From Streptomyces sp. NBC_01689 (GTDB taxonomy: Bacteria > Actinomycetota > Actinomycetes > Streptomycetales > Streptomycetaceae): a stretch of 64,000 nt of DNA. Below the pieces are notes generated by a model. The model made no database searches. It saw only the letters and a program-made list of their open reading frames with translations, and was not told the DNA's origin. How positions within the stretch are numbered: position 1 is the first letter of the stretch; each line of letters opens with the position of its first letter. The position numbers were made by a program, and so were the translations under genes. Positions 44,960-63,470 of this stretch are shown one piece after another. Where the stretch lies: NCBI RefSeq assembly GCF_036250675.1, contig NZ_CP109592.1, positions 5,518,001 through 5,582,000 on the forward strand, read 5' to 3'.

Positions 44960-44974
44960 CTGACGGGTTGTCAG
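44960..44974. promoter_or_regulatory. island operator 1 (ligase side)
   Basis: CTGACGGGTTGTCAG, an instance of the consensus CTGACGnnCnGTCAG, lies 15 bases upstream of the ligase start codon. A TACGCT box on the minus strand (44985-44990) precedes it, so a bound repressor would block transcription start. Confidence 0.7.
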
Positions 44975-45002
44975 ATCCAAGCGGAGCGTAGGACGCACCG
45001 CC

Positions 45003-45051
45003 TTGTCGGTCCATAGGTGTGGGGCTAGCCTGCTATCTGACGGGTCATCAG
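45003..45051 (+). promoter_or_regulatory. promoter and island operator 2 (amidohydrolase side)
   Basis: TTGTCG (45003-45008), a 17-base spacer and TAGCCT (45026-45031) form a good promoter. It is followed after five bases by the operator CTGACGGGTCATCAG (45037-45051), which would cover the transcription start. The amidohydrolase ATG is 27 bases further on. Confidence 0.7.
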
Positions 45052-45077
45052 ATACGGATGCCAGGCGGAGGCCACCC

Positions 45078-46271
45078 ATGACGGAACTGCCGCGGATCGT
45101 CAGCGTCGACGACCACGTGATCGAACCCGCGCACCTCTTCGAGACCTGGCTGCCCGCCAAGTACCGCGACCGCGGACCCCGGCCCCTCACGGCCGGCATC
45201 GGTGAACTCGCCTACGTCGGCGGGAGGTACCGGATCACCATGGACCCGGACGGCCCGCCCACCGACTGGTGGATCTACGAGGACCTCAAGTTCCCGTACA
45301 AACGCAACATCGCCGCCGTCGGCTTCGACCGCGACGAGATGACCCTGGAGGGCATCACCCGCGCGGAGATGCGGCGCGGCTGCTGGGACCCCGCCGAGCG
45401 CCTGAAGGACATGGACCTCAACCACGTCGAGGCCAGCCTCTGCTTCCCGACCTTCCCGCGTTTCTGCGGCCAGACCTTCGCCGAGGCGCACGACAAGGAG
45501 GTGGCCCTCGCCTGTGTGCGCGCCTACAACGACTGGATGGTCGAGGAGTGGTGCGGCGACAGCGGCGGCCGGCTGATCCCGCTCTGCCTCATCCCGCTGT
45601 GGGACATCGACCTGGCCGTCGCGGAGATCCGGCGCAACGCGGCACGCGGCGTGCGGGCGGTGACCTTCTCCGAGATCCCCACCCACCTGGGCCTGCCCTC
45701 CATCCACTCCGGCCACTGGGACCCGTTCTTCGCGGTCTGCCAGGAGACCGGCACCGTCGTGAACATGCACATCGGCAGCAGCAGCCAGATGCCGGCCGCC
45801 TCCCCGGACGCGCCCCCCGCCGTCCAGGCGTCGCTCTCCTTCAACAACGCGATGGCCTCGATGATGGACTTCCTCTTCAGCGGTGTCCTCGTGCGGTTCC
45901 CCCGCCTCAAGCTCGCCTACTCCGAGGGCCAGATGGGCTGGATCCCGTACGCACTGGAACGCGCCGACGACGTCTGGGAGGAGCACCGCGCCTGGGGCGG
46001 TGTCAAGGACCTCGTCCCGGAGCCCCCGTCCACGTACTACTACCGGCAGATCTTCTGCTGCTTCTTCCGCGACAAGCACGGCGTCGCGTCCCTGGACGTC
46101 GTCGGCCGCGACAACGCCACCTTCGAGACCGACTACCCGCACGTCGACTCGACCTTCCCGCACACCAAGGAGGTCGCCCTCGACCATGTGAAGGGCCTCG
46201 ACGACGAGACGGTCCACAAGCTGATGCGCGGCAACGCGATCCGCATGCTGGACCTGGACCTCGACCGGTAG
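45078..46271 (+). CDS. amidohydrolase-2 (TIM-barrel) family protein
   Basis: A 397-residue protein of the ACMSD-like amidohydrolase 2 family, which includes decarboxylases and hydratases acting on aromatic or CoA-linked acids. The N-terminal metal motif is modified to DDHVIEPAHLFETW near residue 11. Further likely ligands are His in TVVNMHIGSSSQ near 231 and Asp in FETDYPHVDSTFPHT near 354. Such proteins are frequent next to steroid, hopanoid and cyclic-acid degradation genes in actinobacteria. ATG at 45078 has GGAGG six bases upstream. First gene of a three-gene operon with two acyl-CoA dehydrogenases. Confidence 0.85.
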   Translation: MTELPRIVSVDDHVIEPAHLFETWLPAKYRDRGPRPLTAGIGELAYVGGRYRITMDPDGPPTDWWIYEDLKFPYKRNIAAVGFDRDEMTLEGITRAEMRRGCWDPAERLKDMDLNHVEASLCFPTFPRFCGQTFAEAHDKEVALACVRAYNDWMVEEWCGDSGGRLIPLCLIPLWDIDLAVAEIRRNAARGVRAVTFSEIPTHLGLPSIHSGHWDPFFAVCQETGTVVNMHIGSSSQMPAASPDAPPAVQASLSFNNAMASMMDFLFSGVLVRFPRLKLAYSEGQMGWIPYALERADDVWEEHRAWGGVKDLVPEPPSTYYYRQIFCCFFRDKHGVASLDVVGRDNATFETDYPHVDSTFPHTKEVALDHVKGLDDETVHKLMRGNAIRMLDLDLDR

Positions 46272-46278
46272 CCGGCCC

Positions 46279-47433
46279 GTGGACCTCACGTACACCGCCG
46301 AGGAGGAGGAGTTCCGGGCCCGGCTGCGCGAGTGGCTGGCCGGGGCGCTCCCCGCGCTGCCCCCGAAACCCTCCCCGGACGACTGGCCCGCCCGGCGCGC
46401 GTACGACCTCGGGTGGCAGCGGAGGCTGTACGACGCCGGGTACGCCGGCCTGCACTGGCCCCTCGACGCCGGGGGCCGCGGGGCCACGCCGGTCCAGCAC
46501 CTCATCTACCTGGAGGAGACCGAGCGGGCGGGCGCCCCCTACGTGGGGGCCAACTTCGTCGGGCTGCTGCACGCCGGCCCGACCATCGCCGCCGAGGGCA
46601 CCGCCGGGCAGCGGGCGCGCTGGCTGCCGCCGGTGCTGCGCGGCGAGGAGGTCTGGTGCCAGGGGTTCAGCGAGCCGGACGCGGGCTCGGACCTCGCGGC
46701 GCTGCGCACGCGCGCGTGGCGGGACGGCGACGACTACGTGGTGAGCGGGTCCAAGATCTGGACCTCCCACGCGGAGGTGGCCGACTGGTGCGAGCTGCTG
46801 GTGCGCACCGACCCGGCGGCGCCGAGACACCGGGGCATCTCCTGGCTGGCGATGCCCATGGACGCCCCGGGGATCACCGTCCGCCCGCTGCCCACGCTCG
46901 CGGGGTCGGCCGAGTTCGCGGAGGTCTTCCTCGACGAGGTGCGGATACCGGTCACCCACCGCGTCGGCGCCGAGAACGACGGCTGGCGCGTGACGATGGT
47001 GACGCTGTCGTACGAACGCGGCACCGCCTTCGTCGGCGAGGTCGTCGCGTGCCGCCGGGTCCTGGGCGAACTGGCCCGCGCGGCGCGCGACAACGGCCGC
47101 TGGGACGATCCGGCGCTGCGACGCCGGCTGGGCGGGCTCAACGCCGAGTTCCGCGCGCTGTGGCGGCTCACCCAGTGGAACGTGAGCGAGGCGCAGCGGA
47201 CGGGCGGGGTGCCGGGTGTCGGCGGCTCGGTCTTCAAACTGCGCTACTCGCACGCGCGTCAGGAGCTGTACGACGCGGCCGCCGAGGTCCTCGGCCCCGA
47301 GGCGCTGGACCTGGAGCGGGAGTGGACCCGCGACCGCCTGACGTCCCTGGCGTACACGATCGCGGCCGGCACCTCCCAGATCCAGCGCAACATCGTGGCC
47401 GAACGCATCCTGGGTCTGCCGAAAGGGCGGTGA
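46279..47433 (+). CDS. acyl-CoA dehydrogenase (large subunit of a probable heteromer)
   Basis: A 384-residue acyl-CoA dehydrogenase with the middle-domain FSEPDAGSDLAALRT near residue 130 and the C-terminal AGTSQIQRNIVAERILGLPK. The position of the usual catalytic Glu (YEGT) has Ala (AAGT), so the base may come from another helix or from its partner. GTG at 46279 starts seven bases after the amidohydrolase stop. The next gene encodes a shorter dehydrogenase and overlaps by four bases. Together they look like the alpha/beta FadE pairs of mycobacterial cholesterol side-chain degradation. Confidence 0.87.
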   Translation: MDLTYTAEEEEFRARLREWLAGALPALPPKPSPDDWPARRAYDLGWQRRLYDAGYAGLHWPLDAGGRGATPVQHLIYLEETERAGAPYVGANFVGLLHAGPTIAAEGTAGQRARWLPPVLRGEEVWCQGFSEPDAGSDLAALRTRAWRDGDDYVVSGSKIWTSHAEVADWCELLVRTDPAAPRHRGISWLAMPMDAPGITVRPLPTLAGSAEFAEVFLDEVRIPVTHRVGAENDGWRVTMVTLSYERGTAFVGEVVACRRVLGELARAARDNGRWDDPALRRRLGGLNAEFRALWRLTQWNVSEAQRTGGVPGVGGSVFKLRYSHARQELYDAAAEVLGPEALDLEREWTRDRLTSLAYTIAAGTSQIQRNIVAERILGLPKGR

Positions 47434-48356
47434 GCTCATCCGTGGACTTCCGACTCACCGAGGACCAGCGCGCCCTGCGGGACGGTGTACGCGCGCTGCT
47501 GACCGGCCGTTTCGGGCCGGAGGCGCTGCGCGCGGCCGTGGCCCGCGGCGGCCGGGGCCTCGACCGGGCGCTGTGGCGGGAGCTGGGCGCGGCGGGCTTC
47601 TTCTCGCTGCGGCTGCCGGAGGCGGACGGCGGCGCCGGACTCGGGCTGCCCGAGGCGGTGCTGGCGTTCGAGGAGGCGGGCCGGGTGCTGCTCCCGGGCC
47701 CCCTGGTCGCGACGCACCTCGCGGCCGGCCAGGTGGCCGGGGCGGCGGCCGGCGAGACCGTGGTCACCGCCGTCCACGGCGGTCTTGTGGAGTGGCTGGA
47801 CGAGTCCGACACCGTGTGGGACGACGCCGGGGGCCCTTCCGGGGCCGTTGCCGCCGGCGCGGTACCGCTGACGTCGGTGGACCCGCTGACGCCTCTGCAC
47901 CGGATCCCCGAGGACCTCCTCACCGGCCCCACCGATCCCCTCGCCGTACTCCTCACCGCCGCCGAGCAGCTCGGCAACGCCGCCCGGACCTGTGAGGCCG
48001 CGGTGCAACACGCCCGGACCCGTGAGCAGTTCGGGCAGCCGATCGGTGCCTTCCAGGCGGTCAAGCACCTGTGCGCGGGGATGCTGGTGCGGGTGGAGCT
48101 GGCGCGGGCCGCGGTCTACGCGGCCGCCGTGACCGCCGACCCCGTGGACATCGCGGCGGCCCGGCTGCTCGCCGACGACGCCGCCGTGCGCGGCGCCCGC
48201 GACTGCCTCCAGGTGCACGGCGGTATGGGCTTCACCTGGGAGTCCGACGTCCATCTGTATCTCAAGAGGGCGTGGGTGCGGGCCCGGCGGGGAGGCTCGA
48301 TCACGGAGAGTGAGGATGTGCTCGCCGACGATCTGATCGCCGGAACCGGCCGATGA
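47430..48356 (+). CDS. short acyl-CoA dehydrogenase (small subunit of a probable heteromer)
   Basis: A 308-residue acyl-CoA-dehydrogenase-like protein, about 75 residues short of the normal length. The N-terminal helical domain (DFRLTEDQRALRDGVRALL) and the C-terminal domain (ARTREQFGQPIGAFQAVKH, and CLQVHGGMGFTWESDVHLYL) are kept. The middle beta domain is reduced and lacks the FAD-binding TEP..GSD stretch. This is the pattern of the small subunits in mycobacterial heteromeric FadE enzymes. GTG at 47430 overlaps the previous stop; GTG at 47442 is an alternative. Last gene of the operon. Confidence 0.85.
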   Translation: MSSSVDFRLTEDQRALRDGVRALLTGRFGPEALRAAVARGGRGLDRALWRELGAAGFFSLRLPEADGGAGLGLPEAVLAFEEAGRVLLPGPLVATHLAAGQVAGAAAGETVVTAVHGGLVEWLDESDTVWDDAGGPSGAVAAGAVPLTSVDPLTPLHRIPEDLLTGPTDPLAVLLTAAEQLGNAARTCEAAVQHARTREQFGQPIGAFQAVKHLCAGMLVRVELARAAVYAAAVTADPVDIAAARLLADDAAVRGARDCLQVHGGMGFTWESDVHLYLKRAWVRARRGGSITESEDVLADDLIAGTGR

Positions 48357-48832
48357 CGCTCTGTCCAGGGGTGCTCCGGGGCGCGTCGCGCCGAATGTCA
48401 CGGATCGTGGCATATGGGGATCACAGAGCGTTGATACCGGGTTGTGTCCTACGCGTGACTCGTCACGTCCTGGAGTCGGCGCCGGGCTCGGGTACCTTGT
48501 GTGGGATGCGAGCGGTTCCGAGACTGAGCCATCCCGGTGTTGCCCCTGCGGCCGCGCCGGATCCGGTGATGCTCGCCGTTCGCCAGGTGGCCCGGGACCC
48601 CGTGGCCGCCTGTTCGACTCCCCGTGGCGAGCGTCGCACAGTATCCCGCACGCGTACTCCTTCGCGCTGGAATATGCCCGAAGCGCTTGTTGGGGTGACT
48701 GTACGTCAACCATGCTGTCTCTCAAGGGAATCACGTTCCGTGATTCTGGTTCTGGTCACGCAGGCCATGGCCACGTTCGTGGCCCTCGTGAGGCGCGAGG
48801 CGATGTGTCCGCCGGTTCGGATGGTGTGAGCG
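48357..48832. other. 476-base intergenic region with a 19-base dyad
   Basis: No convincing gene. GAATCACG (48728-48735) and CGTGATTC (48739-48746) form a perfect eight-base dyad with a three-base centre, about 85 bases before the ATPase gene. A TACCTT sequence near 48492 could be a -10 element, but no good -35 was found. Confidence 0.5.
48728..48746. promoter_or_regulatory. candidate operator dyad upstream of the HATPase gene
   Basis: A perfect eight-base inverted repeat (GAATCACG and CGTGATTC) with three central bases lies 87 bases upstream of the GTG start of the ATP-binding protein. The regulator is unknown. Confidence 0.4.
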
Positions 48833-49309
48833 GTGCAGGTGCTTCAAGTGCAGCTGGAGATCCGGCCCGACCCCGCGGAGGTGGGGCGAGCCCGGAGATG
48901 GGCCCGGTCGAGGCTCGCCGGGTCGGGCATAGAGGCCGACGAGCCGCTCGCCGAGACGCTGATCCTGCTCGTCTCCGAACTCGCGACCAACGCCGTGGTG
49001 CACACCGGCTGTCCGGCCGTGCTGCGGCTGTCCCTGCCGGACGTGCCCGGTGAGTCGCTGGGTACGGTCCGCCTGGAGGTGGCCGACTCCAGCGACTGCC
49101 CCCCGCGGCCCCGGCACGCCGAGGGCGACGAGACCAACGGGCGCGGCCTGGAGCTGGTCGACGGACTCGCGGACCGCTGGGGCTGGAACCCCGAGGGCGT
49201 CGGCAAGAGCATCTGGTGCGAGCTGGACCGGTGCACGGCCGCGGCGAAGGCCTCGGCCGCGTACGTGACCTGCCAGGGCTTCGCCTACGAGGCGTACGAA
49301 GCCGTCTGA
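48833..49309 (+). CDS. ATP-binding regulatory protein (HATPase_c, RsbW/SpoIIAB-like)
   Basis: A 158-residue GHKL ATPase of the anti-sigma/serine-kinase type abundant in Streptomyces. The N-box is ILLVSELATNAVVHTG near residue 45, the G1 region is RLEVADSSDCPP near 80, and the G2 region is TNGRGLELVDGLADRWGW near 102. The C-terminal 25 residues are an Ala/Tyr-rich extension. It may phosphorylate a STAS antagonist; the one at 42351-42725 is the nearest candidate but they are not adjacent. GTG at 48833. It interrupts the catabolic island and has no island operator. Confidence 0.85.
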   Translation: MQVLQVQLEIRPDPAEVGRARRWARSRLAGSGIEADEPLAETLILLVSELATNAVVHTGCPAVLRLSLPDVPGESLGTVRLEVADSSDCPPRPRHAEGDETNGRGLELVDGLADRWGWNPEGVGKSIWCELDRCTAAAKASAAYVTCQGFAYEAYEAV

Positions 49310-49706
49310 CACGAACCCGGTCGGTGCGTGAGTGGGGTTCGCGCTTCCCCGGCGGCCGTCCGAGCCGAATGCGCCGGGTCGTGCTTCTCCGCGCGCCGTC
49401 ACAAAGCGTGCATAAGTGATAATCCCCCGAACGGGTGTTGACGTGACGTGTCCGTTTGATCACGCTTATGGGTAGCGATGCGCCGCGAGGGGACGGCGAG
49501 GGTTCCGGTGACGGGAGCCCTCGGCGAGTGCGGATCGTGATTCGGCGTCGGCTCCTTCGGGGTCCTGAGGGGCAGGGCGGGTGCGCCGGAGCCGGATGGC
49601 GGCGCGCGTTGCCGTGCTCGGGGCGAGCAGTGACGCGCCGCCAGTCGACTCCTTCCCTCGCTCTCCGTCGCCTCCCCTGACCCTTCCCGCGTGCCGCTGC
49701 CCCCTC
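49310..49706. other. 397-base intergenic region between convergent genes
   Basis: No gene is seen. An AT-richer patch at about 49405-49480 contains CATAAG and CTTATG arms about 50 bases apart and a TTGACG hexamer, possibly a promoter or a small transcript. The rest is GC-rich and featureless. Confidence 0.45.
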
Positions 49707-50642
49707 CTAGAGCAGGGCGACGGGGGCGACCGGTGTGCCCGTGCCGCCCACGAAGGGTTCGGGCATCGCCGACAGCAGGAACGAGTGGCGTCCTTCTTGT
49801 CCACAGGCTGTGGACAACTCTTCGAGATTCCAGTTCTGACCCTGCAGCATCCCCATCTCCACCAGGTCGAGCGCGTGGACGGGCAGCCAGAGGTCCTCGA
49901 TCTCGGGCGGGAAGATCTCGAACGTGAGGGTGTCGTTCGCGACGGCCGCGACATCCCGCGCGTGGAACCACTCCGGCGTGCGGACGGACAGGCCGGGCGA
50001 CGGATACGCGTAGCCGTGTCTGTCGCCCGCCAGATAGACCTGGATCTGACCGGTCCGTACGAGCACGATGTCCCCGGCCCGCACCCGGGTGCCGGCCAGT
50101 TCCTCGGCGGCGTCCAGGTCCTCGGGGGTCACGGCGTGCCCGCCGTCGAGACGGTCCACGCCCCTGGCGCGCGCGACGTCCAGCAGCACGCCCCGGGAGA
50201 CGATGTGCCGGGGTCTGTCGATGCCGCCGAACGCGGCGCCGCCGTGCGGGGTGACCGTGTCGGCGGGGCGGCCGTTGTAGAGCGTCCCCGAGTGCGAGAC
50301 ATGGCTGAGCGCGTCCCAGTGGGTCGCGGCCTGCAGGCCCAGGGTGACGGCGTCGTCGCTGCACGCCACGGTGCCGGGGCCGAACACCTCCTGGTTGATC
50401 TGCACCATGACGTGCAGCGGATTGATCCGCCCGGGGATCATCCCGGTCTGCACCCCGTCCTGCCGGAGGGGGAGCGCGAGGGGGACGCGGCGCCCCGAGC
50501 GGACCTCCCGCGCGGCCCGGCGCACCACCTCGTCGGTGATGAGGTTCAGGGTCCCGATCTCGTCGTCGGCGCCCCAGCGCCCCCAGTTGTTCACCCGCTT
50601 CGCGATCTCGTGGAAGGCCGGGTGGAGCGTCGGCGCTGACAT
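49707..50642 (-). CDS. cyclase-family (PF04199) metal-dependent hydrolase
   Basis: A 311-residue protein of the kynurenine-formamidase/cyclase family. The metal-binding signature TGTH-x-D-x-P-x-H appears as ATHWDALSHVSHSG near residue 106. The YNGRPADTVTPHGG region near 121 and WGADDEIGTLNLIT near 22 are typical of the actinobacterial subgroup. It likely hydrolyses an amide, lactone or ring, giving ring cleavage in the island pathway. ATG at 50642 has GGGGAGGA four bases upstream. It is divergent from the SDR gene, with island operators between them. A DnaA-box palindrome lies inside the gene. Confidence 0.85.
   Translation of the reverse strand: MSAPTLHPAFHEIAKRVNNWGRWGADDEIGTLNLITDEVVRRAAREVRSGRRVPLALPLRQDGVQTGMIPGRINPLHVMVQINQEVFGPGTVACSDDAVTLGLQAATHWDALSHVSHSGTLYNGRPADTVTPHGGAAFGGIDRPRHIVSRGVLLDVARARGVDRLDGGHAVTPEDLDAAEELAGTRVRAGDIVLVRTGQIQVYLAGDRHGYAYPSPGLSVRTPEWFHARDVAAVANDTLTFEIFPPEIEDLWLPVHALDLVEMGMLQGQNWNLEELSTACGQEGRHSFLLSAMPEPFVGGTGTPVAPVALL
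49797..49817. promoter_or_regulatory. palindromic pair of DnaA boxes inside the cyclase gene
   Basis: Two head-to-head DnaA boxes, TTGTCCACA (49797-49805) and TGTGGACAA (49809-49817), form a perfect palindrome with ten-base arms around a single G. Both boxes match the preferred Streptomyces DnaA box. The sequence is coding (residues around ELSTACGQ of the cyclase). Function is unproven; a DnaA-binding or titration site is possible. Confidence 0.5.
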
Positions 50643-50672
50643 GAGTCCTCCCCGGGGCTTGTCTTCGGGTAT

Positions 50673-50715
50673 CTGACGGGCCGTAGAATCCGAATTGAAT
50701 CTAACGGACCGTCAG
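50673..50715. promoter_or_regulatory. island operators 3a/3b between cyclase and SDR genes
   Basis: CTAACGGACCGTCAG at 50701-50715 is a good match to the island consensus. CTGACGGGCCGTAGA at 50673-50687 keeps the left half only. They lie between the divergent starts at 50642 and 50738. TAGAAT at 50684-50689 may be a -10 for the SDR operon. Confidence 0.65.
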
Positions 50716-50737
50716 AAACTGCGGGAAGGGGCCGGAC

Positions 50738-51649
50738 ATGGGGAACTTCTTGGCAGGCAAGGTCGTCGCCGTGACGGGTGCGGGGCGGGGCATCGGACGC
50801 GCCGTCGCGCTCGCCGCGGCCGGTGAGGGCGCGCGCGTCGTCGTCAACGACTACGGGGTCTCCGTCGAGGGCGCGGAGCCGACGAGTTCGGTCGCGGAGG
50901 CCGTGGTCAAGGAGATCGAGGCGGCCGGCGGGGAGGCCGTCGCGGTGGCCGACGACATCTCCACGATGGAGGGCGGCCGGCGCGTCGTGGACACGGCGCT
51001 GACCTCGTGGGGGCGGATCGACGGAGTCGTGTGCGTGGCCGGCATCCTGCGTGAGCGGATGCTGTTCAACATGTCCGAGCAGGAGTGGGACCCGGTCGTG
51101 GCCACCCATCTGAAGGGCACCTTCACGGTCTTCCGGGCGGCCTCGGCCGTCATGCGCGAACAGCGCTCGGGCACGCTGATCGGCTTCACCAGCGGCAACC
51201 ACCAGGGCTCCGTGGCGCAGGCCAACTACAGCGCGGCCAAGGGCGGGATCATCTCGCTGGTCCGCAGCGCGGCGCTCGGCCTGCACCGCTACGGCGTGAC
51301 GGCGAACGCGGTCGCACCGGTCGCCCGCACCCGGATGTCCGCGAACGTCCCCATGGAACTGGCCGAGATCGGCGAACCGGAGGACGTCGCCGCGCTGGTG
51401 GTCTACCTGCTGTCGGAGCGCGCCCGGCGGGAACGGATCACCGGGCAGGTCTACACGATCGCCGGACCGAAGATCGCGGTGTGGGCGCAGCCGCGGGAGC
51501 TGCGCGCCGGGTACGCGGAGGGCGGGTGGACGCCGGAGCGGATCGCCGACTTCCTGCCGGGCACGGTGGGAGTGGACCCGATGCCGCTGCTGGAACGGGT
51601 GGAGGCGATGGCGCGGGCCGCGGCGGAGAAGTCGCGGCCGAACGCGTGA
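50738..51649 (+). CDS. short-chain dehydrogenase/reductase
   Basis: A 303-residue classical SDR. The cofactor motif TGAGRGIG is at residues 13-20, and the catalytic ANYSAAKGG is near 165. The sequence resembles the 17-beta-hydroxysteroid/3-hydroxyacyl-CoA dehydrogenase part of multifunctional enzymes (VVVNDYGVSVEG near 36). It probably oxidises a 3-hydroxyacyl-CoA or a ring hydroxyl with NAD+. ATG at 50738 follows GGGAAGGG. First of a three-gene operon (SDR, acyl-CoA dehydrogenase, zinc alcohol dehydrogenase) under island operators at 50673-50715. Confidence 0.9.
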   Translation: MGNFLAGKVVAVTGAGRGIGRAVALAAAGEGARVVVNDYGVSVEGAEPTSSVAEAVVKEIEAAGGEAVAVADDISTMEGGRRVVDTALTSWGRIDGVVCVAGILRERMLFNMSEQEWDPVVATHLKGTFTVFRAASAVMREQRSGTLIGFTSGNHQGSVAQANYSAAKGGIISLVRSAALGLHRYGVTANAVAPVARTRMSANVPMELAEIGEPEDVAALVVYLLSERARRERITGQVYTIAGPKIAVWAQPRELRAGYAEGGWTPERIADFLPGTVGVDPMPLLERVEAMARAAAEKSRPNA

Positions 51650-51685
51650 GAGTGCCGGGGTGCCGGCCGACCGGGAGGACGACGC

Positions 51686-52837
51686 GTGGAGTTCGGATTC
51701 GATGCCGAGGACGAGGTCTTCCGGCGTACGGCGCGGGACTGGCTGGCGGCGCACCACCCGGGTGACCCCGGCCGCCGGGAGTGGGAGCGGGAGCTCGGGC
51801 GGGACGGCTGGATCGGCCTCGGATGGCCGGAGGACGGATACGGCAACCGGCGCGCGACCCTGACCCAGCAGGTCGTCTGGGCCGAGGAGTACGCCCGCGC
51901 GAAGGCCCCGGCCCGCTCCGGGCACATCGGCGAGAAACTCCTCGCCCCCACTCTCATCGGCCACGGGACGGCGGAGCAGAAGGCCCGCTTCCTGCCCCCG
52001 ATCGCCCGCGGCGAGGAACTCTGGTGCCAGGGCTACAGCGAGCCCGGTGCCGGCTCCGACCTCGCCGGCGTCAGGACGACGGCGGTACGGGAGGAGGGCG
52101 CCACGCCCTCACGGACGTACCGCGTCAGCGGCCGGAAGATCTGGACCTCGCTCGCCCACGAGGCGGACTGGTGCTTCGTCCTGGCCCGCACCCGGCCGGA
52201 CGCCCCGCGCCACCACGGTCTGTCCCTGCTCCTCCTCCCGATGGACCAGCCGGGCCGTGTCGAGGTCCGGCCGATCCGCCAGCTCACCGGCACCAGCGAG
52301 TTCAACGAGGTCCTCTTCGACGGCGCGCGGGCCGAGCATGTCCTCGGCGGCGAGGGCAACGGCTGGCGGGTGGCCATGAGCCTGCTCGGACACGAGCGCG
52401 GCGTCTCGACCCTCGCCCAGCAGGTCGGTTTCGCGGCGGAGCTGCGACGCGTGATCGAGACGGCCGTCGCGACGGGCGCGGCCGGTGACCCGGTCCTGCG
52501 CGACCGTCTGGTGCGGCTGTGGGCGGAGCTGCGCACGATGCGCTGGAACGCCCTGCGGACGCTGGGCGGTCTCGGCGACGTGGGCGCGCCGAGCGTCGCC
52601 AAGCTGCTGTGGGGCGGCTGGCACCAGCGGCTCGGTGAGCTCGCGGTGCAGATACGGGGAGCGGAGGCGGCGACCGGCCCGGCGGACTGGTCGGCCGCCG
52701 CGCCGTACGAACTCGACCCGCTCCAGCACCTGTTCCTGTTCAGCCGGGCCGACACCATCTACGGCGGCTCGGACGAGATCCAGCGCACGATCATCGCCGA
52801 GCGCGTGCTCGGCCTGCCGAAGGAACCCAGGGGATAG
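51686..52837 (+). CDS. acyl-CoA dehydrogenase
   Basis: A 383-residue acyl-CoA dehydrogenase with YSEPGAGSDLAGVRT near residue 115 and the C-terminal DTIYGGSDEIQRTIIAERVL. The YEGT catalytic Glu position is Gly (YGGS), as in several FadE enzymes acting on bulky acyl-CoAs. GTG at 51686 has GGAGGACG about eight bases upstream. It follows the SDR gene by 36 bases and precedes the zinc alcohol dehydrogenase gene. Confidence 0.9.
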   Translation: MEFGFDAEDEVFRRTARDWLAAHHPGDPGRREWERELGRDGWIGLGWPEDGYGNRRATLTQQVVWAEEYARAKAPARSGHIGEKLLAPTLIGHGTAEQKARFLPPIARGEELWCQGYSEPGAGSDLAGVRTTAVREEGATPSRTYRVSGRKIWTSLAHEADWCFVLARTRPDAPRHHGLSLLLLPMDQPGRVEVRPIRQLTGTSEFNEVLFDGARAEHVLGGEGNGWRVAMSLLGHERGVSTLAQQVGFAAELRRVIETAVATGAAGDPVLRDRLVRLWAELRTMRWNALRTLGGLGDVGAPSVAKLLWGGWHQRLGELAVQIRGAEAATGPADWSAAAPYELDPLQHLFLFSRADTIYGGSDEIQRTIIAERVLGLPKEPRG

Positions 52838-52864
52838 CCCGGGGACGAGAGGGGAGCCGGTGCG

Positions 52865-53914
52865 ATGCGAGGCGTGATCTTCGACGGTGAGCGGACCCAG
52901 GTCGTGGACGATCTGGAGGTACGGGATCCGGGGCCCGGCGAGGTGGGGGTCGCCGTCTCCGCGGCCGGACTCTGCCACAGCGATCTCTCCGTGGTGGACG
53001 GGACCATCCCCTTCCCCGTTCCCGTGGTGCTGGGCCACGAGGGGGCCGGGACCGTCGAGTCGGTGGGCGCGGGCGTCACCCACGTCGGTCCCGGCGACCA
53101 TGTCGCGCTGTCGACCCTCGCCAACTGCGGCGCGTGCGCGGAGTGCGACCGGGGGCGGCCGACGATGTGCCGCAAGGCGATCGGCAGGCCGCAGCGGCCG
53201 TTCACCCGGGGCGGGCGGCCGCTGTACCAGTTCGCCTCCAACTCGGCTTTCGCGGAACGGACGGTGGTGAAGGCGGTCCAGGCCGTCCGGATCCCGCGGG
53301 ACATCCCGCTGCCCTCGGCCGCGCTGATCGGCTGCGGGGTGCTGACGGGCGTGGGAGCCGTCCTGAACCGCGCGCGGGTGGGCCAGGGCGAGCGCGTCCT
53401 CGTGATCGGCACCGGCGGCATCGGGCTCAACGTGATCCAGGGGGCCCGGCTCGCCGGGGCCCTGAGGATCGTCGCGGTCGACTCCAACCCGGCCAAGGAG
53501 GAGGTCGCCCGCCGGTTCGGCGCGACCGACTTCCTCACCTCCACCGAGGCCGTACGGGAGATCCTCCCCACGGGCGCGGACCACGCCTTCGAGTGCGTGG
53601 GCCGCGTCGAACTCGTCCGTCAGGCGGTCGACCTGCTGGACCGTCACGGCCAGGCGGTGCTCCTCGGCGTGCCGCCCGCCGGGGCCGAGGCGTCCTTCCT
53701 CGTCTCCGCGATGTATCTGGACAAGTCGATCCTCGGCTGCCGCTACGGATCGTCGCGCCCCCAGCGCGACATCACCCTCTACGCGGACCTCTACCGCGAG
53801 GGCCGCCTGCTGCTCGACGAACTGGTCACCCGCACCTACCCGGTGGAGGACTTCGACAAGGCGGCCCAGGACGCGCACGAGGGGAGGGTGGCACGGGCGG
53901 TCCTGACGTTCTAG
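52865..53914 (+). CDS. zinc-dependent alcohol dehydrogenase (class III/NDMA-type relative)
   Basis: A 349-residue medium-chain dehydrogenase. The catalytic zinc site has Cys in GLCHSD near residue 37 and the GHE motif in VLGHEGAGTVES near 57. The structural zinc Cys set is CGACAECDRGRPTMC near 86-100, and the Rossmann motif is GTGGIGLN near 180. It oxidises an alcohol to the aldehyde with NAD+. ATG at 52865 has GGGGAGCC upstream. Last gene of the SDR operon. Confidence 0.9.
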   Translation: MRGVIFDGERTQVVDDLEVRDPGPGEVGVAVSAAGLCHSDLSVVDGTIPFPVPVVLGHEGAGTVESVGAGVTHVGPGDHVALSTLANCGACAECDRGRPTMCRKAIGRPQRPFTRGGRPLYQFASNSAFAERTVVKAVQAVRIPRDIPLPSAALIGCGVLTGVGAVLNRARVGQGERVLVIGTGGIGLNVIQGARLAGALRIVAVDSNPAKEEVARRFGATDFLTSTEAVREILPTGADHAFECVGRVELVRQAVDLLDRHGQAVLLGVPPAGAEASFLVSAMYLDKSILGCRYGSSRPQRDITLYADLYREGRLLLDELVTRTYPVEDFDKAAQDAHEGRVARAVLTF

Positions 53915-53994
53915 GCCGTGTCCGGGCCGTGCGCACGGCGGGGCGGGCGTCCTCCGTGGCCTGACCGGGGAGCCCGGAGACACCGGCGGGACGG

Positions 53995-54003: not shown

Positions 54004-54055
54004 GGCCGGGGAAATCCGCTGGGGTGCTGTCGGTGCGGTCCCCTAACGTCGTCGC

Positions 54056-56299: not shown

Positions 56300-56370
56300 G
56301 GCCCGATCCTAGCGAATGCTGTCCTCCCGGCCACTCGCTCGGAAGGGCGGCCGGCCCGAAGCTCGATGAT

Positions 56371-57687: not shown

Positions 57688-57763
57688 GACCGGCGTGCCG
57701 CCGGGCGGCTGGGCCGGGCGGCCGGGCGGCCGGGCGGCTGGGCTGAGGGGCTGGACGAAGCGG

Positions 57764-58420
57764 CTAGACGAAGCGGCCCCGGTGGAAGAGCAGCGGCGCG
57801 ACCTCCGTGTCGGCGCCCGCGCCACCGTCCCCGGATCCGTCCCCCGTGCCGAGCGCGTCCACCCGTCCCACCACGATGAGATGGTCCCCGCCGGTGTGCA
57901 CCGCGTGGATCGTGCAGTCGATCCAGGCCGCGGCTCCCGCGAGGCGGGGCGAGCCGGAGACGGGTGCCGCGTCGTATCCGACCCCCGCGAACTTGTCCGC
58001 CCCGCTCACCGCGAACCCGCGGCACAGGTCGCCCTGATGCGCGCCCAGTACGTTCACGCAGAAGGAGCCCGCACGGGCGATCCGCGGCCAGGTCGACGAC
58101 GTACGGCCGACCATGAAGCAGACCAGCGGCGGGTCGAGGGAGAGGGAGGAGAAGGACTGGCAGGCGAATCCGGCCGGACCCGCCTCCCGGGGCTCCCCGG
58201 GTCCCGCCGGTGCGGTGACGACGGTCACGCCGGTCGCGAAGGTGCCCAGCACCCGCCGGAACTCGCCCTGGTCGACCGGTGCCCGCTCGTCCGCGCCGAC
58301 CGACCGCAGCTCCGGGCGCGGCAGCATCTCGACCGGTCCCGCGACGGCGGGGCTCCCGGCCGACCGGAGATAACGCACGGCCGCCGCCGCCATTCCCGCG
58401 TGTCCCATCACACCGTCCAT
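57764..58420 (-). CDS. flavin reductase family protein
   Basis: A 218-residue FMN-binding split-barrel protein. Core motifs are FRRVLGTFATGVTVVTAPAG near residue 54, CQSFSSLSLDPPLVCFMVGR near 85 and FCVNVLGAHQGDLCRGFA near 118. It supplies reduced flavin to a two-component monooxygenase, or acts as a flavin-dependent reductase. The start is uncertain: ATG at 58420 is only five bases from the operator at 58426-58440, and inner ATGs at 58408 and 58393 are possible. Last of the minus-strand ligase/crotonase/reductase run. Confidence 0.85.
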   Translation of the reverse strand: MDGVMGHAGMAAAAVRYLRSAGSPAVAGPVEMLPRPELRSVGADERAPVDQGEFRRVLGTFATGVTVVTAPAGPGEPREAGPAGFACQSFSSLSLDPPLVCFMVGRTSSTWPRIARAGSFCVNVLGAHQGDLCRGFAVSGADKFAGVGYDAAPVSGSPRLAGAAAWIDCTIHAVHTGGDHLIVVGRVDALGTGDGSGDGGAGADTEVAPLLFHRGRFV

Positions 58421-58425
58421 TGAAG

Positions 58426-58440
58426 CTGACGATGCGTCAG
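58426..58440. promoter_or_regulatory. island operator 4 (flavin reductase)
   Basis: CTGACGATGCGTCAG matches the island consensus in both five-base arms and lies between the crotonase stop and the reductase start. The reductase may thus have its own promoter within the minus-strand run. Confidence 0.65.
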
Positions 58441-58467
58441 ATGGGAAGGGCCGGCCGCCCTGGTCCG

Positions 58468-59400
58468 TCATCTGCCCCGGAACTCGGCCGCCCGCCGTTC
58501 CACGAAGCTCGCCACCCCTTCCTTCGCGTCCGCCGTCGTCATGTTGATCTCCTGGGCGGCGGCCTCCGCGGCGAAGGCGGTGCCGCGGTCGGAGTCGAGG
58601 GAGGCGTTGACCAACTGCTTGGTGAGGGCCAGGGCACGGGTCGGCCCGGCGGCCAGCCGCTCGGCCCACGCCCGGGCGGTCTTCTCCAGGTCCTCGGGCG
58701 GGACGACCCGGTTGACGAGACCGAGCCGTTCGGCGTCCCCGGCGCTGAGCGCGTCGCCGAAGAACATGAGTTCCTTCGCGCGCTGGGGTCCGACGAGACG
58801 CGGCAGCAGATACGCCCCGCCGCCGTCGGGGACCAGCCCGCGGCGGACGAACGCCTCGATGAACCGCGCCGGTTCGGCGGCGATCACGAGGTCGCAGGCG
58901 AGGGCGAGATGGACACCGAGGCCGGCCGCGGTGCCGTTGACGGCGGCGATCACCGGCTTCTCGCAGTCCAGGACCGCCGCGACGAGCCGTTGGGCGCCGA
59001 GCCGGAGCGTGCGGGCGACGTCGCCGGGGATCCGTTCGCCCGCCGCGGGCGCGCCCCTCAGGTCCGCGCCCGCGCAGAATCCGCGGCCCGTCGCGGTGAT
59101 CACCATGGCCCGGACGTCCGGGTCCGCGGACGCGGACGCGAGCAGCGCGATCACGCGTTCCCGCTGGTCCCAGGTGAGGGCGTTCATCGTCTCGGGGCGG
59201 TCGAGGGTGATCCACGCGACGCCGTTGCCGATGGCGTGACGGATCGACGAGTCGGCGGACCCGTCGGAGGACCGCGGAGGTCCGGCCGTTCCGCGCGATC
59301 CGGCCGGCTCGTGAGATCGGGTCGTTTCTCGTGATCCGGCCGGTTCGTGCGATCCGGTCGGACCGTCGGACGCGGCCGGCGTCCGGGGCGAGGCGGGCAT
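58468..59400 (-). CDS. enoyl-CoA hydratase/isomerase (crotonase) family protein
   Basis: A 310-residue crotonase with an unusual N-terminal extension of about 50 residues rich in Ser/Gly/Pro/Arg, containing two SHEPAGSR copies. The crotonase core follows: GRGFCAGADLRG near residue 107, and GTAAGLGVHLALACDLVIAA near 156. The catalytic Glu pair region FIEAFVRRGLVPDGGG is near 183. ATG at 59400 is supported by GGAG eight bases upstream. Probably hydrates an enoyl-CoA in the island pathway. Lies 51 bases after the ADP-forming ligase. Confidence 0.88.
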   Translation of the reverse strand: MPASPRTPAASDGPTGSHEPAGSRETTRSHEPAGSRGTAGPPRSSDGSADSSIRHAIGNGVAWITLDRPETMNALTWDQRERVIALLASASADPDVRAMVITATGRGFCAGADLRGAPAAGERIPGDVARTLRLGAQRLVAAVLDCEKPVIAAVNGTAAGLGVHLALACDLVIAAEPARFIEAFVRRGLVPDGGGAYLLPRLVGPQRAKELMFFGDALSAGDAERLGLVNRVVPPEDLEKTARAWAERLAAGPTRALALTKQLVNASLDSDRGTAFAAEAAAQEINMTTADAKEGVASFVERRAAEFRGR

Positions 59401-59451
59401 GGGAGGGCTCCAGTTCGTACGGGACGGGGCGGTCGGTCGGTGGCGCGGGGT

Positions 59452-61677
59452 TCAGCGGCAGACCACCAGGGCGTCCAGGGCCACCGCCCCCTGCCCCCGG
59501 GGCAGCACCATCAGCGGGTTGACGTCGAGCTCGGCGATGTCGTCGCCGAGCTCCAGTGCCATCCGCTGTATCCGCAGGACGACCTCGACGAGCGCGTCCA
59601 CGTCCGCCGGCGGCGCCCCGCGCACCCCGTCCAGGAGCGCCCGACCGCGCAGTTCACGGAGCATTCCGCGGGCCTGGTCCTCGCCGAAGGGCGGCACGCG
59701 TACGGCCGTGTCCCGCAGCACCTCGACGAGGACACCCCCGAGCCCGACGGCCACGGTCGGCCCGAACAGCTTGTCGTGCGTGACCCCCACGACCATCTCG
59801 ACGCCCCGTTCGACCATCTGGCACACCAGCACCCCGTCCAGCGAGATCCCCTCGTAGCGCGCGATGTCGGTCAGCTCGCGGTAGGCGTCCCTGACCTGGC
59901 TCGCGGAGGTCAGCCCGATCTTCACCAGGCCGAGTTCGGTCTTGTGGGCGATCTGCGCCCCGGAGGCCTTCATGACGACCGGGTAGCCCACCAGGGCGGC
60001 CGCGCGCACGGCCGCCGCCGCGCTCGTCACCAGTTGTTCGCGCGGCACCCGTATCCCGTAGGCGCGCAGCAACTGTTTCGCCGCGTGCTCGCTCAGCTGC
60101 TGTCCCGGCCGCATCAGCGCCTGTGCCTTGCGGAAGGAGGGCGAGGGGGTGCGGGGTGCCTCGTCGAAGGGCGAGCGGTAGCCGGCGGTGAACCGGTGGT
60201 GCTCCAGATGGGCCCGCACGGCGGTGATGCAGTTGGCGAAGGTGCGGAAGGTGGCGACCCGCGCCGAGCCGAGGAGCGTCTCGCGGTAGGCGGCCTCGGT
60301 GCCGACGGGCGACCCCCACACCACGCACACCAGCTTGTCCGTTTGTTCCGCCGCGTCCACCAGATCCCGGGCGAGCCGGTCGCTCATCGGCGGGAAGGGG
60401 CCGGTGATCGGGCAGATCAGCACCCCGACCGCCGGATCGGCGAGGATCGCGTCGATGATCTTCCGGCCGCGCCGGTCGCCCACCGGGTGTCCGCCGTTGT
60501 CGACGGGGTTGGCCACGCTCAGGTACTCGGGTATCCACTGGTGCAGTTCGTCCTGCTTGGCCGCCGAGAGGGTCGGCAGGCGCAGGCCCGCCGCCGTCGC
60601 CAGGTCCGCGAAGTGGGCCCCCGTGCCGCCGGAGATCGAACAGACGGCGACCCCGTCGGCCAGCGGGGCGCGGGCGCGGGCCAGCAGGGCTGCGGTGTCC
60701 TGGAGTTCGTCGAGCCCGTCGACGCGGATCACGCCGAACTGCCGCATCGCCGCGTCCACCACGGTGTCGGCGCCGGTCAGTTTGCCGGTGTGGGAGGCGG
60801 CGGTGCGGGCGCCGGTCTCGGTGCGGCCGACCTTGACGGCGACGACCGGCACCCCGCGCCGGGCGGCGCGGTCGGCGGCGAGCAGGAAGGAGCGGCCGTC
60901 CTTGAGCCCTTCGACATAACAGGCGATGGCGCCGACCTCGGGCCGCTCGGAGAAGTAGGAGATGAAGTCGGCGGTCTCCAGGTCGGCCTCGTTGCCGGTG
61001 GGTGCCCAGTGGGAGAGCCGTACGCCCAGTTCCTGCATGGCGAAGACCGGGCGGCCCTGGTGACCGGACTGGGTGATCAGGGCGACCGCGGGACCGTCGA
61101 GGTCGTCGCGGAACCGCTCGAAGGCGTTGAGGTTGGTGTTGGGCCCGAGCAGACGCAGCCCCGAGCGTCGCGCGGCGGCGGCGAGCCGGTCCTGCGCGGC
61201 CGCGCCCTCGGCGCCGGTCTCGGCGAACCCGGAGGCGAAGGCGACGGCGAACTTCACCTTGGCCTCCCCCAGTTCGTCGATGACGGCGAGCGGGTCGCCG
61301 ACCAGCAGCACGGCCAGGTCGACCTGCTCGGGCAGGTCGGCGACGGTGGGGAAGCAGGGCAGGCCGAAGACGGCCCGGCGGGTGGGGTGGACCGGGTGCA
61401 GCCGGGCCCCGACCCGCTCGGCCCAGGAGATCAGCTGCCGGGTGATGCCGGTGTTGGGCCGCCCCTCGGTGTCCGAGGCGCCGACGACGGCCATCGATCC
61501 GGGCCGGAAGAACCGGTCCAGATCGGGTACGTCGGCGTACAGCGGGCGTCCGCCGACGTCGAGGTCGTCGACGTCGGCCGGCCGGCCGTGCACGACGGGT
61601 GAGGGCTGCTCGCCGCAGGCGATGACCCGGGCCCGGCGGGAGTCGGTGGTGAGGGTGCCGTGGGTTGATCCAAGCAT
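59452..61677 (-). CDS. ADP-forming acetate/acyl-CoA ligase family protein (fused subunits)
   Basis: A 741-residue fusion. A CoA-binding domain starts at about residue 53 (MAVVGASDTEGRPNTG) and is followed by succinyl-CoA-ligase-like flavodoxin domains (SISGGTGAHFADLATAAGL near 345). A C-terminal ATP-grasp domain has YPVVMKASGAQIAHKTELGL near 565 and LGDDIAELDVNPLMVLP at the end. The family interconverts acyl-CoA plus ADP with acid plus ATP, and it is common in catabolic operons where it may recycle CoA. ATG at 61677 has AGGAG 11 bases upstream. Two island operators and a promoter precede it. Confidence 0.88.
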   Translation of the reverse strand: MLGSTHGTLTTDSRRARVIACGEQPSPVVHGRPADVDDLDVGGRPLYADVPDLDRFFRPGSMAVVGASDTEGRPNTGITRQLISWAERVGARLHPVHPTRRAVFGLPCFPTVADLPEQVDLAVLLVGDPLAVIDELGEAKVKFAVAFASGFAETGAEGAAAQDRLAAAARRSGLRLLGPNTNLNAFERFRDDLDGPAVALITQSGHQGRPVFAMQELGVRLSHWAPTGNEADLETADFISYFSERPEVGAIACYVEGLKDGRSFLLAADRAARRGVPVVAVKVGRTETGARTAASHTGKLTGADTVVDAAMRQFGVIRVDGLDELQDTAALLARARAPLADGVAVCSISGGTGAHFADLATAAGLRLPTLSAAKQDELHQWIPEYLSVANPVDNGGHPVGDRRGRKIIDAILADPAVGVLICPITGPFPPMSDRLARDLVDAAEQTDKLVCVVWGSPVGTEAAYRETLLGSARVATFRTFANCITAVRAHLEHHRFTAGYRSPFDEAPRTPSPSFRKAQALMRPGQQLSEHAAKQLLRAYGIRVPREQLVTSAAAAVRAAALVGYPVVMKASGAQIAHKTELGLVKIGLTSASQVRDAYRELTDIARYEGISLDGVLVCQMVERGVEMVVGVTHDKLFGPTVAVGLGGVLVEVLRDTAVRVPPFGEDQARGMLRELRGRALLDGVRGAPPADVDALVEVVLRIQRMALELGDDIAELDVNPLMVLPRGQGAVALDALVVCR

Positions 61678-61710
61678 CGGTCCGCCCGCTCCTGTGTGAC
61701 AGTCCATTAA

Positions 61711-61752
61711 CTGACGCACTGTCAGATTACTTAACTGACGGCCTGTCAGGAA
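61711..61752 (-). promoter_or_regulatory. promoter with tandem island operators 5 and 6
   Basis: On the minus strand, TTCCTG (61747-61752), a 17-base spacer and TAATCT (61724-61729) form a good promoter for the ADP-forming ligase. CTGACGGCCTGTCAG (61735-61749) covers the -35 and spacer. CTGACGCACTGTCAG (61711-61725) overlaps the -10 and the start site. Two full operators spaced nine bases apart allow tight repression. Confidence 0.75.
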
Positions 61753-62056
61753 CAGTCGTGCAGGCAAAGCCGCGTACGTGCGGTGGGCGTGCCGCGCCGG
61801 TGGGCGGCCGGACGGGCGCTCGGGCGAGGCGTGCGGTGGCGCGTGGGGCGGGTGCGCGGCGGGCGGACGTCCGGCACGTGGACGGACGCGACGGGCACAC
61901 GGTTCGTACCCGCGGTACGCCGACCGGAACCCGGCGCCGGGGGTCCGGCATCACCGCGCCGTGCCGTCCTTCGCGTCCGCCGTGTGCCGTCCCTCAGGTC
62001 GGCCGCGCCCGGCCCCGTGCCGCCGCGGTCCGTCCCGCCCGGCCCGGGGCTCCGGT
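61753..62056. other. 304-base gap between FMO and ligase genes
   Basis: GC-rich sequence with no convincing gene or hairpin on either strand. It separates the stop of the monooxygenase from the ligase promoter; both genes read leftwards. Confidence 0.5.
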
Positions 62057-63250
62057 TCAGCCCGCGGTGCGGCTCCGTCGCGTGGTGCGCGCCACGGCCT
62101 TCGCTATCTTCTGCGCGTCCAGGGCGAGTTCGCGGAACATGCCGCTGATGGGGTTGGTGAACCCGGTGAAGTACAGACCGGGTGCGTTCTTCGGGGTGCG
62201 TCCGCCGTGCACGACCGGACGGCCCCGTTCGTCCAGCACGCCGAGGTGTCCGACCACGCCCTCCAGCGCGCGTTCGTACCCGGTGGCCGCGATCACCGCG
62301 TCGGGGCCGATCCGGGTGCCGTCGGCGAGGACGACCTTGCCCTCCTCGAACCCCTCCACCGCGGCCACGATCTCGACCCGCCCCTTGCGCACGGCGTCGA
62401 TCAGGCCGACGTCCTGGACGGGGATCGAGCCCTCCTTGACCCGCGAGTAGAGGCCGGTGGCGGGGCGCGGCAGCCCCTGCGCCGACAGGTCCGGGACACT
62501 CGCCTTGGCCATCGGCCCGGCGAGCGCGTCGACCACGCGCACCGGCAGCCGCCGGACGAGGATGCCGGTGAACTGGGCGGCCCAGCCCGCCGTGGAGCGC
62601 CGCACGATGTGCGGGGCGGTGCGCACCGCGAGCCGCACCCGGCCGGCGCCGCCCTCCACCAGGTCCACGGCGATCTCGGCGCCCGTGTTGCCGATGCCGA
62701 CGACCAGGACGTCCCGTCCCGCGTAGGGCGCGGGCTCGCGGTATGCGCCGGCGTGCAGGAGTTCGCCGCTGTAGGCGTCGCGGCCGGGCCAGTCCGGCAG
62801 GCGGGGGGTGTGGTTGGTGCCGGTGGCCACGACGACGGCGCTGCCGGTCAGTTCGCGGCCGCCGGTGGCGTGCAGCAGCCAGGAGTCGCCGGCGCGCTCG
62901 ACGCGCGAGACCTCGACGCCCGTGACGATCTCCAACTGGTGGTGCTCGGCGTACTTCTCCAGGTAGCGCACCACGTTGTCGCGCGAGACCCAGCGGCCGA
63001 ACGCGCGGGGCATGGCCAGCCCCGGGAGGGCGGACAGCCGCCGTGTCGTGTGCAGGTGCAGCCGGTCGTAGTGGCGGCGCCAGGAGGCCCCGACGCGGTC
63101 GGACTTCTCCAGCACGACGGCCCGTACGCCCTGGGCGCGCAGCGCGTACGCCACCGCGAGGCCGCCGGGGCCGCCACCGATCACGTACACGGGGCGGTCC
63201 TCGTGGGACGGTACCGGGCGGAGTGTGGAGGAAGCAGTCGAGTCGGCCAT
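62057..63250 (-). CDS. flavin-containing monooxygenase (Baeyer-Villiger/YUC-like)
   Basis: A 397-residue class B flavin monooxygenase. The FAD motif GGGPGGLAVAYALR is near residue 25, and the NADPH motif VVGIGNTGAEIAVDLV near 180. The fingerprint between them, YSGELLHAGAY near 160, is a variant of FxGxxxHxxxW/Y. A C-terminal ATGYE motif is near 317. It inserts oxygen into a ketone or heteroatom of a pathway intermediate or of a separate substrate. ATG at 63250. Divergent from the DoxX gene, with an island operator nearer to DoxX. Confidence 0.87.
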   Translation of the reverse strand: MADSTASSTLRPVPSHEDRPVYVIGGGPGGLAVAYALRAQGVRAVVLEKSDRVGASWRRHYDRLHLHTTRRLSALPGLAMPRAFGRWVSRDNVVRYLEKYAEHHQLEIVTGVEVSRVERAGDSWLLHATGGRELTGSAVVVATGTNHTPRLPDWPGRDAYSGELLHAGAYREPAPYAGRDVLVVGIGNTGAEIAVDLVEGGAGRVRLAVRTAPHIVRRSTAGWAAQFTGILVRRLPVRVVDALAGPMAKASVPDLSAQGLPRPATGLYSRVKEGSIPVQDVGLIDAVRKGRVEIVAAVEGFEEGKVVLADGTRIGPDAVIAATGYERALEGVVGHLGVLDERGRPVVHGGRTPKNAPGLYFTGFTNPISGMFRELALDAQKIAKAVARTTRRSRTAG

Positions 63251-63455
63251 GAGCGCGAGCGTAATCACGTCGTCAATTGATAGGTCTCGGTCAAGCCCGG
63301 AATCGGTTGCGAACTGATCACGACTGCAGGAGGGGCGGGTGCGGTCGGTGGCGTAGGTCACTCGGAACGCGCGGAGTCGGTGGAACGCGCGATCGGGCCG
63401 GGCCGGGAGCGGGTGTGCGCGCACGTCTTGCGTGAGGGTGCCCTCGTCCGCTGAA

Positions 63456-63470
63456 CTGACGTACCGTCAG
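63456..63470. promoter_or_regulatory. island operator 7 (DoxX side)
   Basis: CTGACGTACCGTCAG matches the island consensus in both arms and lies 27 bases before the DoxX ATG and 206 bases from the divergent monooxygenase start. No clear -10 was found. Confidence 0.7.

Follow-up and report, generated by a model that had tools for sequence, protein, structure and literature searches.

A stretch of 64,000 nucleotides of Streptomyces sp. NBC_01689 (contig NZ_CP109592.1, positions 5518001 to 5582000 of a 9.96 Mb genome; hereafter the window) carries a series of nearly identical palindromes at the heads of genes for coenzyme A (CoA)-linked catabolism. The question is which protein recognizes these palindromes, and how far its control extends. 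We put the probability at roughly 85% that they are operators of one TetR-family repressor of the SCO4421 type, controlling a CoA-linked catabolic regulon. What the computations described here show directly is the motif, where it lies, and that its link to the regulator gene is conserved.

The palindromes in the window

An original prediction, made from the letters of the window, described eight copies of one palindrome as a single regulon over 18 kb. The eight positions are as follows (window coordinates, no strand assigned, scores from the 19-position matrix described below).

44960..44974, first of two operators in the promoter region between the divergent AMP-ligase and amidohydrolase-like genes, 25.9 bits
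45037..45051, the other operator of this region, centred 34 bp ahead of the amidohydrolase-like start, 26.1 bits
50673..50687, half-degenerate copy, not established, 11.1 bits against a reversed-window maximum of 11.0
50701..50715, operator in the divergent cyclase / short-chain dehydrogenase/reductase (SDR) region, 21.9 bits
58426..58440, operator flanked by the genes for enoyl-CoA hydratase and flavin reductase, 26.7 bits
61711..61725, operator before the ADP-forming acyl-CoA ligase, 28.4 bits
61735..61749, further operator ahead of this ligase gene, 24 bp from the first, 23.8 bits
63456..63470, operator before the DoxX-like gene, 27.6 bits

The pattern CTGACRNNNYGTCAG, allowed at most one mismatch, has seven matches in the window, and these are exactly the listed sites other than 50673. 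One hundred dinucleotide shuffles of the window gave a mean of 0.72 matches and a largest count of 5, and none reached seven or more. A 19-position matrix built from 135 distinct sites at 80 other Streptomyces loci ranks the same seven as the top seven of the window (21.9 to 28.4 bits) with 50673 next best, a test that uses other sequences but whose selection is not independent, because the training sites were picked with a 15-base matrix derived from the window's own eight sites. Seven of the eight claimed copies therefore stand, while the one at 50673 scores at background; a degenerate copy resembling it is also present in genome G007, 29 bp from its partner site.

All seven sites lie at the heads of transcription units, as had been predicted, with 23 to 106 bp between the site centre and the nearest called start. 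The flavin reductase has an in-frame ATG at 58420 that would place its site 5 bp upstream. Matrix scans also bore out the statement that the interspersed MFS, GlxA, and HATPase genes are free of sites. Other details of the original prediction need correction. Its pattern, CTGACGnnCnGTCAG, is slightly wrong, since the spacer is free and the palindrome symmetric; with 3 mismatches it had 130 matches in the window against 144.65 expected, and this loose form, being unenriched, was dropped for the symmetric pattern. Two sites had been placed over the start of good promoters, at 45003-45051 and 61711-61752. The operator positions fit target promoters, yet a consensus promoter scan identified no promoter at either place. 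The site before the gene called DoxX is real, while the Pfam DoxX match itself is below threshold (18.6 against 23.6 bits).

The palindrome is 19 bp long, ANCTGACG-NNN-CGTCAGNT, within the size range of operators in TetR regulons (palindromes of about 15-20 bp). Across 456 distinct site contexts from this genome and its relatives, the arms CTGACG and CGTCAG are conserved around a loose 3-bp spacer. An A at -2 and a T at +16, both outside the search matrix, are conserved as well (0.76 each; 1.53 bits). Because the arms and these flanking positions are conserved together, the sites behave as one 19-bp protein-binding palindrome. The paired operators at 61711 and 61735 keep a spacing of 24-25 bp in 6/6 genomes, this one included. 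Two further pairs lie outside the window, with a spacing of 27 bp kept in 7/8 genomes (5596625/5596652) and of 56-63 bp kept in 6/6 (5605431/5605493). The constant spacing of paired operators hints at cooperative or two-promoter binding.

Extent in the genome

The series does not end at the window's right edge. Strong sites (above 16 bits) follow at 5587487, 5587571, 5596625, 5596652, 5602116, 5602294, 5605431, 5605493, and 5625064, with another of 16.0 bits at 5629396. Within the 160 kb scanned there are 17 cluster sites above 14 bits, 7 of them inside the window. The idea of a single regulon thus agrees with the data, while its proposed extent of 18 kb was too small, as the series runs past 63470.

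Exact matches to CTGACRNNNYGTCAG number 28 in the whole genome, compared with 2 when the pattern is reversed. Ten of the 28 fall between 5562960 and 5625078, a stretch of about 62 kb that was chosen after the fact (binomial P 1e-15). The remaining 18 are mostly outside crude open reading frame calls: 15 lie outside, two of these overlapping a stop codon, and 3 lie inside. The genome scan proposed with the original prediction accordingly turned out in its favor, with clustered sites and the others largely outside the crude reading frame calls.

Some strong sites were observed far from the cluster. They lie at 6735066 near a luciferase-like monooxygenase (LLM, 6735044), at 5177045 and 5177062 near an acyl-CoA dehydrogenase (ACAD, 5177115), at 4239904 near a glyoxalase (4239924) close to another TetR gene, at 7908242 near an isochorismatase (7908337), and at 8397496 near a polyketide-cyclase-like gene.

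The candidate regulator and its own site

The original prediction held that no TetR regulator lies in this part of the window and that one should be sought near the right edge, and a TetR gene carrying a site at its start is found 7.4-8.1 kb beyond.

Genome C1:5589438-5590085 (window-extrapolated 71438-72085), minus strand, TetR regulator gene, family TetR_C_38 (Pfam), 7.4-8.1 kb past the window
Genome 5590079-5590093, the regulator's variant site over its start codon, CTGTCATGCCGTCAG, 13.1 bits, one arm base changed

The start-shortened protein matches PF00440 (TetR_N) with 25.5 bits against a cut-off of 24, and the full-length protein has precomputed matches to PF00440 and PF19352. Its start looks leaderless, and the start codon lies inside the variant site. 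This start-codon site is present at 28/30 and 79/80 Streptomyces loci. Orthologs from a second family, f3, have the same form, CTGAC-ATGACA, at the regulator ATG in 4/4 genomes examined, with scores of only 10.0-12.8 bits. For families f20 and f16, where the regulator is 47-51% identical, seven genomes were examined from 17 non-genus orthologs, and 7/7 have a site of at least 14.6 bits within 400 bp upstream of the regulator, against 0/7 for the reversed sequence. An operator at the regulator's own promoter is found, then, in Streptomyces, f3, and f20/f16. The six f1 and f3 orthologs compared share the helix-turn-helix (HTH) stretch AGTSPATFYQYFPD without any change.

Orthologs of the regulator occur in 36/36 other genomes of the same genus and in 14/14 of f3, with 0/10 among the others sampled. 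A wider survey found them in 45/296 genomes, 28 of the own genus and 17 from other families (42-53% identity). A PDB search with the regulator returned weak matches, mostly at the HTH level, such as EthR; its AlphaFold model has a mean predicted local distance difference test score of 65 and was used for no claim.

The gene neighborhood was used to relate this regulator to a known gene. Its neighbors are AfsK (NCBIfam equivalog, 1500.9 bits against a cut-off of 1300) and a bifunctional FO synthase (CofGH model, 1517.3 against 1018), with AfsR nearby, for which a fragment of 683 of the 966 residues scores 1342.7 where the cut-off of 1430 is for the whole protein. This synteny makes the regulator the likely ortholog of SCO4421 of S. 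coelicolor. By gene numbering, afsR and fbiC are also near SCO4421 in S. coelicolor, and SAV3818 may be the S. avermitilis ortholog. SAV3818 is a TetR gene cited as stimulating antibiotic production in passages of PMC3742746 and PMC4051647. SCO4421 is described in passages of PMC3878966 as a TetR gene close to afsK (SCO4423) that is up-regulated with sporulation and lower in a whiA mutant.

Conservation of the sites around the regulator

The 80 named Streptomyces loci are the best 80 of 573 regulator relatives and total 1.33 Mb. They contain 301 sites above 14 bits against 4 in the reversed control; 8/80 have no site above this threshold, and some of these are short contigs. Eight relatives with larger regions have 3 to 12 sites above 16 bits each, and their reversed controls 1 in total. 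Three f3 genomes (G038, G041, G043), whose regulators are 61-62% identical, have 10, 8, and 8 such sites against 0 reversed.

The sites recur before the same genes. Promoters were compared from -350 to +30 at a threshold of 12.5 bits in this genome and the 8 relatives, and the counts include the own genome. Site-bearing promoters were found for Thiolase1 (8/8), ACAD4 (9/9), Thiolase2 (8/8), PF04909-b (8/8), LLM2 (6/6), ADP-ligase (6/6), DoxX-like (6/6), flavin reductase (5/5), cyclase (3/3), SDR1 (2/3), and AMP-ligase2 (8/9). AMP-ligase1 and PF04909-a were judged in this genome only. The site of the cyclase / SDR region is also present in G007, G013, G036, G038, G041, and G043. No sites precede MFSa (3 genomes), MFSb (4), GlxA (4), HATPase (2), PNPOx (7), AfsK (9), or CofGH (4), nor ECH1 and GNAT1 wherever they were found, these genes covering 2 to 9 genomes each; FMO has a site in 1/6 genomes. 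Further out, four f20 genomes with the region covered have a site between genes like 5625116 and LLM1 (12.9 bits in one, 15.0 in three).

These maps bear on whether the regulon, though real, belongs to a different TetR protein, encoded by a second gene at 5611789-5612637, by the TetR gene in the window at about 19460, or elsewhere. This genome has at least 150 TetR_N matches, two sites head the operon that precedes the second gene, and near another TetR gene, at 4241523, there is a glyoxalase gene that has an exact 19-mer. The SCO4421-type gene is nevertheless present in every cluster-bearing genome mapped, other families included, with a site at its start or upstream. The second gene has no counterpart in the maps of the 8 relatives and a further set, and the in-window gene, whose TetR_N match at 19460-19600 is the one inside the window among the 150 matches listed of 389 candidates, has no strong site nearby. 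Neither gene being linked to sites in the relatives mapped, both were rejected as the regulator, and a different TetR protein of any origin seems improbable to us. The second gene (L018:11789-12637) was observed to lie near the end of an operon-like run starting at 5605565.

Remote targets

Five genes outside the cluster were traced through 17 genomes, counting sites above 14 bits and leaving out the own genome. Orthologs with a site number 13/14 for the luciferase-like monooxygenase, 13/13 in Streptomyces for the MaoC hydratase, 11/14 for the ferredoxin reductase, 12/12 for the PorA-type gene, and 7/7 for the DUF7064-APH operon. Reversed upstream windows at the remote loci exceeded 11.5 bits in 3/67, with a best of 14.0.

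One streptomycete, G031, has no site above 16 bits around its regulator. G031 alone of 15 Streptomyces lacks the LLM site, and it is also alone in lacking a MaoC ortholog at the thresholds used; the ferredoxin reductase site is missing there too, as it is in G005 and G036. The loss of the LLM site and of the MaoC gene in G031 would fit one functional unit.

Target genes and the pathway

The window's genes at or near the operators are the following.

43412..44944, minus, AMP-forming acyl-CoA ligase (PF00501)
45078..46271, plus, PF04909 'amidohydrolase' with DitZ and PtmU3 as nearest solved relatives, perhaps a CoA-linked dinuclear oxygenase
46279..47433, plus, acyl-CoA dehydrogenase, PimC-like, below that model's cut-off
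47442..48356, plus, short acyl-CoA dehydrogenase, IpdE2/PimD-like, below cut-offs
49707..50642, minus, putative cyclase (PF04199)
50738..51649, plus, SDR closest to (3R)-hydroxyacyl-CoA dehydrogenase / 17beta-HSD4
51686..52837, plus, acyl-CoA dehydrogenase
52865..53914, plus, zinc alcohol dehydrogenase
57764..58420, minus, flavin reductase (PF01613), called start 58327, in-frame ATG 58420
58468..59187, minus, enoyl-CoA hydratase
59452..61677, minus, ADP-forming acyl-CoA ligase
63498..63950, plus, small DoxX-like protein, sub-threshold match

Further enzymes of the regulon are a MaoC hydratase, luciferase-like monooxygenases, a ferredoxin reductase, two thiolase-like proteins, and two OB-fold proteins of the ChsH2 type. 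Thiolase2 matches 6ok1, a 'lipid-transfer protein' (337 bits) that we take to be an Ltp2-type aldolase, and NCBIfam PRK07855 above its cut-off. The protein beside Thiolase2 has both ChsH2-type domains, as in the known Ltp2/ChsH2 pairs that degrade steroid side chains. Pairs of Ltp2 and OB-fold proteins typically carry out retro-aldol cleavage of branched side chains attached to rings. This set of target enzymes suggests a pathway for the breakdown of a branched or cyclic acid of the isoprenoid type.

Both PF04909 proteins (45078-46271 and L018:2330-3589) have DitZ (8uyr) and PtmU3 (6omp) as their best solved relatives in the PDB. The alignments run over the His/Asp/Glu stretches DxHxxEP, HIG, SEG/AEG, and DYPH, which resemble those of PtmU3 and DitZ; a dinuclear site of this kind would have three His and three carboxylate ligands. 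PtmU3 is grouped among amidohydrolase-related dinuclear oxygenases in passages of PMC10811679. Judged by these closest relatives, the PF04909 targets are candidate CoA-linked dinuclear oxygenases rather than hydrolases. No Rieske partner appeared among the genes scanned, although no search was aimed at Rieske proteins.

Proposed mechanism and its alternatives

TetR-type control of CoA-linked catabolism, as first proposed, agrees with the placement of the sites and with the predicted target enzymes, and from these we infer binding, repression, ligand, and substrate as follows. A repressor dimer would sit at the promoters of some twelve transcription units surrounding its gene and at five or more remote operons, and would bind its own start, which looks leaderless, through the weaker variant site. 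Bound repressor would block initiation until released by an intermediate of the pathway it controls, either a CoA thioester or an acid. The substrate would be a carboxylic acid, branched or cyclic and probably of the isoprenoid type, which the pathway would activate and shorten with CoA ligases, acyl-CoA dehydrogenases, hydratases, a 17beta-HSD4-like dehydrogenase, two Ltp2-type thiolase/OB-fold sets, and oxygenases.

The same protein might instead bind these sites as an activator or act dually. TetR-family activators exist, as passages of PMC12093943 describe, and some sites lie far upstream, at -186 to -285 for the PorA-type gene and -154 to -302 for MaoC. The cluster targets usually have their site no more than about 110 bp from the start, however, and one site contains the start codon, both of which are the usual place for repression. 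Activation or a dual role is thus an unlikely reading. A reading of the palindromes as chance or repeat-type sequence that regulates nothing is next to impossible, since the lack of enrichment of the loose pattern in the window is outweighed by the shuffles, the reversed controls, the clustering, and the conservation at orthologous promoters.

Control by a single SCO4421-type repressor has several points against it. The regulator's own site, with 13.1 bits, is imperfect; because its right half belongs to the coding sequence, part of its conservation is at the protein level. Deletion of SCO4421 in S. coelicolor gave no phenotype, according to passages of PMC3878966. Selection of the five remote genes was based on their having a site in this genome, and 0/2 MaoC orthologs of f3 have one. 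G031 also lacks PorA and DUF7064 orthologs, an absence that says little since DUF7064 is missing in 9/17 genomes and PorA in G024 too. The f20 regions have 2, 0, 0, 2, and 0 sites above 16 bits against 1, 0, 0, 0, and 1 reversed, and are therefore not clearly above their controls. CTGACN5GTCAG occurs 54 times genome-wide against 7 reversed, and other TetR proteins may therefore use similar sites. Lastly, the regulator is found without its cluster. G045 lacks the cluster and has 2 sites above 16 bits near its ortholog, which is 57% identical and has an unchanged HTH stretch, while G031, G284, and G327 (loci L194-L195 and L302-L305) keep the regulator and its start-codon site with the cluster absent. 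A simple regulon model does not explain this retention, which in the latter three genomes suggests a second role.

The CTGACN5GTCAG excess was seen to include CTGACC-type sites, several of them within genes, that do not fit this operator.

A possible link to AfsK-AfsR

Such a second role could be to couple isoprenoid-type CoA catabolism to AfsK-AfsR, the switch for development and antibiotic production; we regard such a coupling as doubtful. The suggestion stems from the position of the gene beside afsK, its expression in sporulating hyphae (passages of PMC3878966), the operators in the afsR / PF04909 region, and the three genomes that keep regulator and start-codon site as if for a second job. 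AfsR has a site within 350 bp in 6/8 genomes; control of afsR may account for these sites, and the divergent PF04909 gene or its neighborhood explains them equally well. The afsR / PF04909 intergenic region (genome 5602051-5602330, L018) was seen to hold two operators, one 72 bp and the other 250 bp from where afsR is called to start. afsK is a target of ScbR/ScbR2 according to passages of PMC4595836, in which SCO4421 does not appear.

Comparison with known systems

A literature search found no report of this motif or regulon, with thin coverage of subscription journals. Operators described for other TetR proteins were compared and set aside. Those of seven TetR proteins in passages of PMC3511530 differ from the operator here, as does the SAV576 operator CCRTACRVYGTATGS given in passages of PMC3742746 and PMC4051647. 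Sco4385 is another TetR protein, with its gene beside a CoA ligase, and passages of PMC12093943 have its authors saying that their 23-bp consensus may not be the genuine site of Sco4385.

A similar arrangement is that of KstR and KstR2, which repress cholesterol catabolism in mycobacteria and rhodococci. As described in passages of PMC3068626, these are likewise actinobacterial TetR regulators inside a large catabolic cluster, with a short palindrome in divergent promoter regions and genes for CoA-linked degradation, as here. The 14-bp KstR2 operator AnCAAGnnCTTGnT (same passages) differs, however, from the operator here, ANCTGACGNNNCGTCAGNT, and the NCBIfam KstR model does not match the regulator at E 0.001. 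Membership in KstR/KstR2 was rejected on these two grounds.

The regulon is new, while the kind of regulation is already known. It is genuine, large, conserved, and mechanistically ordinary. It surrounds the afsK-afsR locus, includes candidate CoA-dependent oxygenases and aldolases, and gives targets to a conserved orphan regulator. The passages of PMC3878966 report SCO4421 as a sporulation-time gene without a phenotype and give neither targets nor an operator, whereas the regulator here has a predicted operator and a large list of predicted targets.

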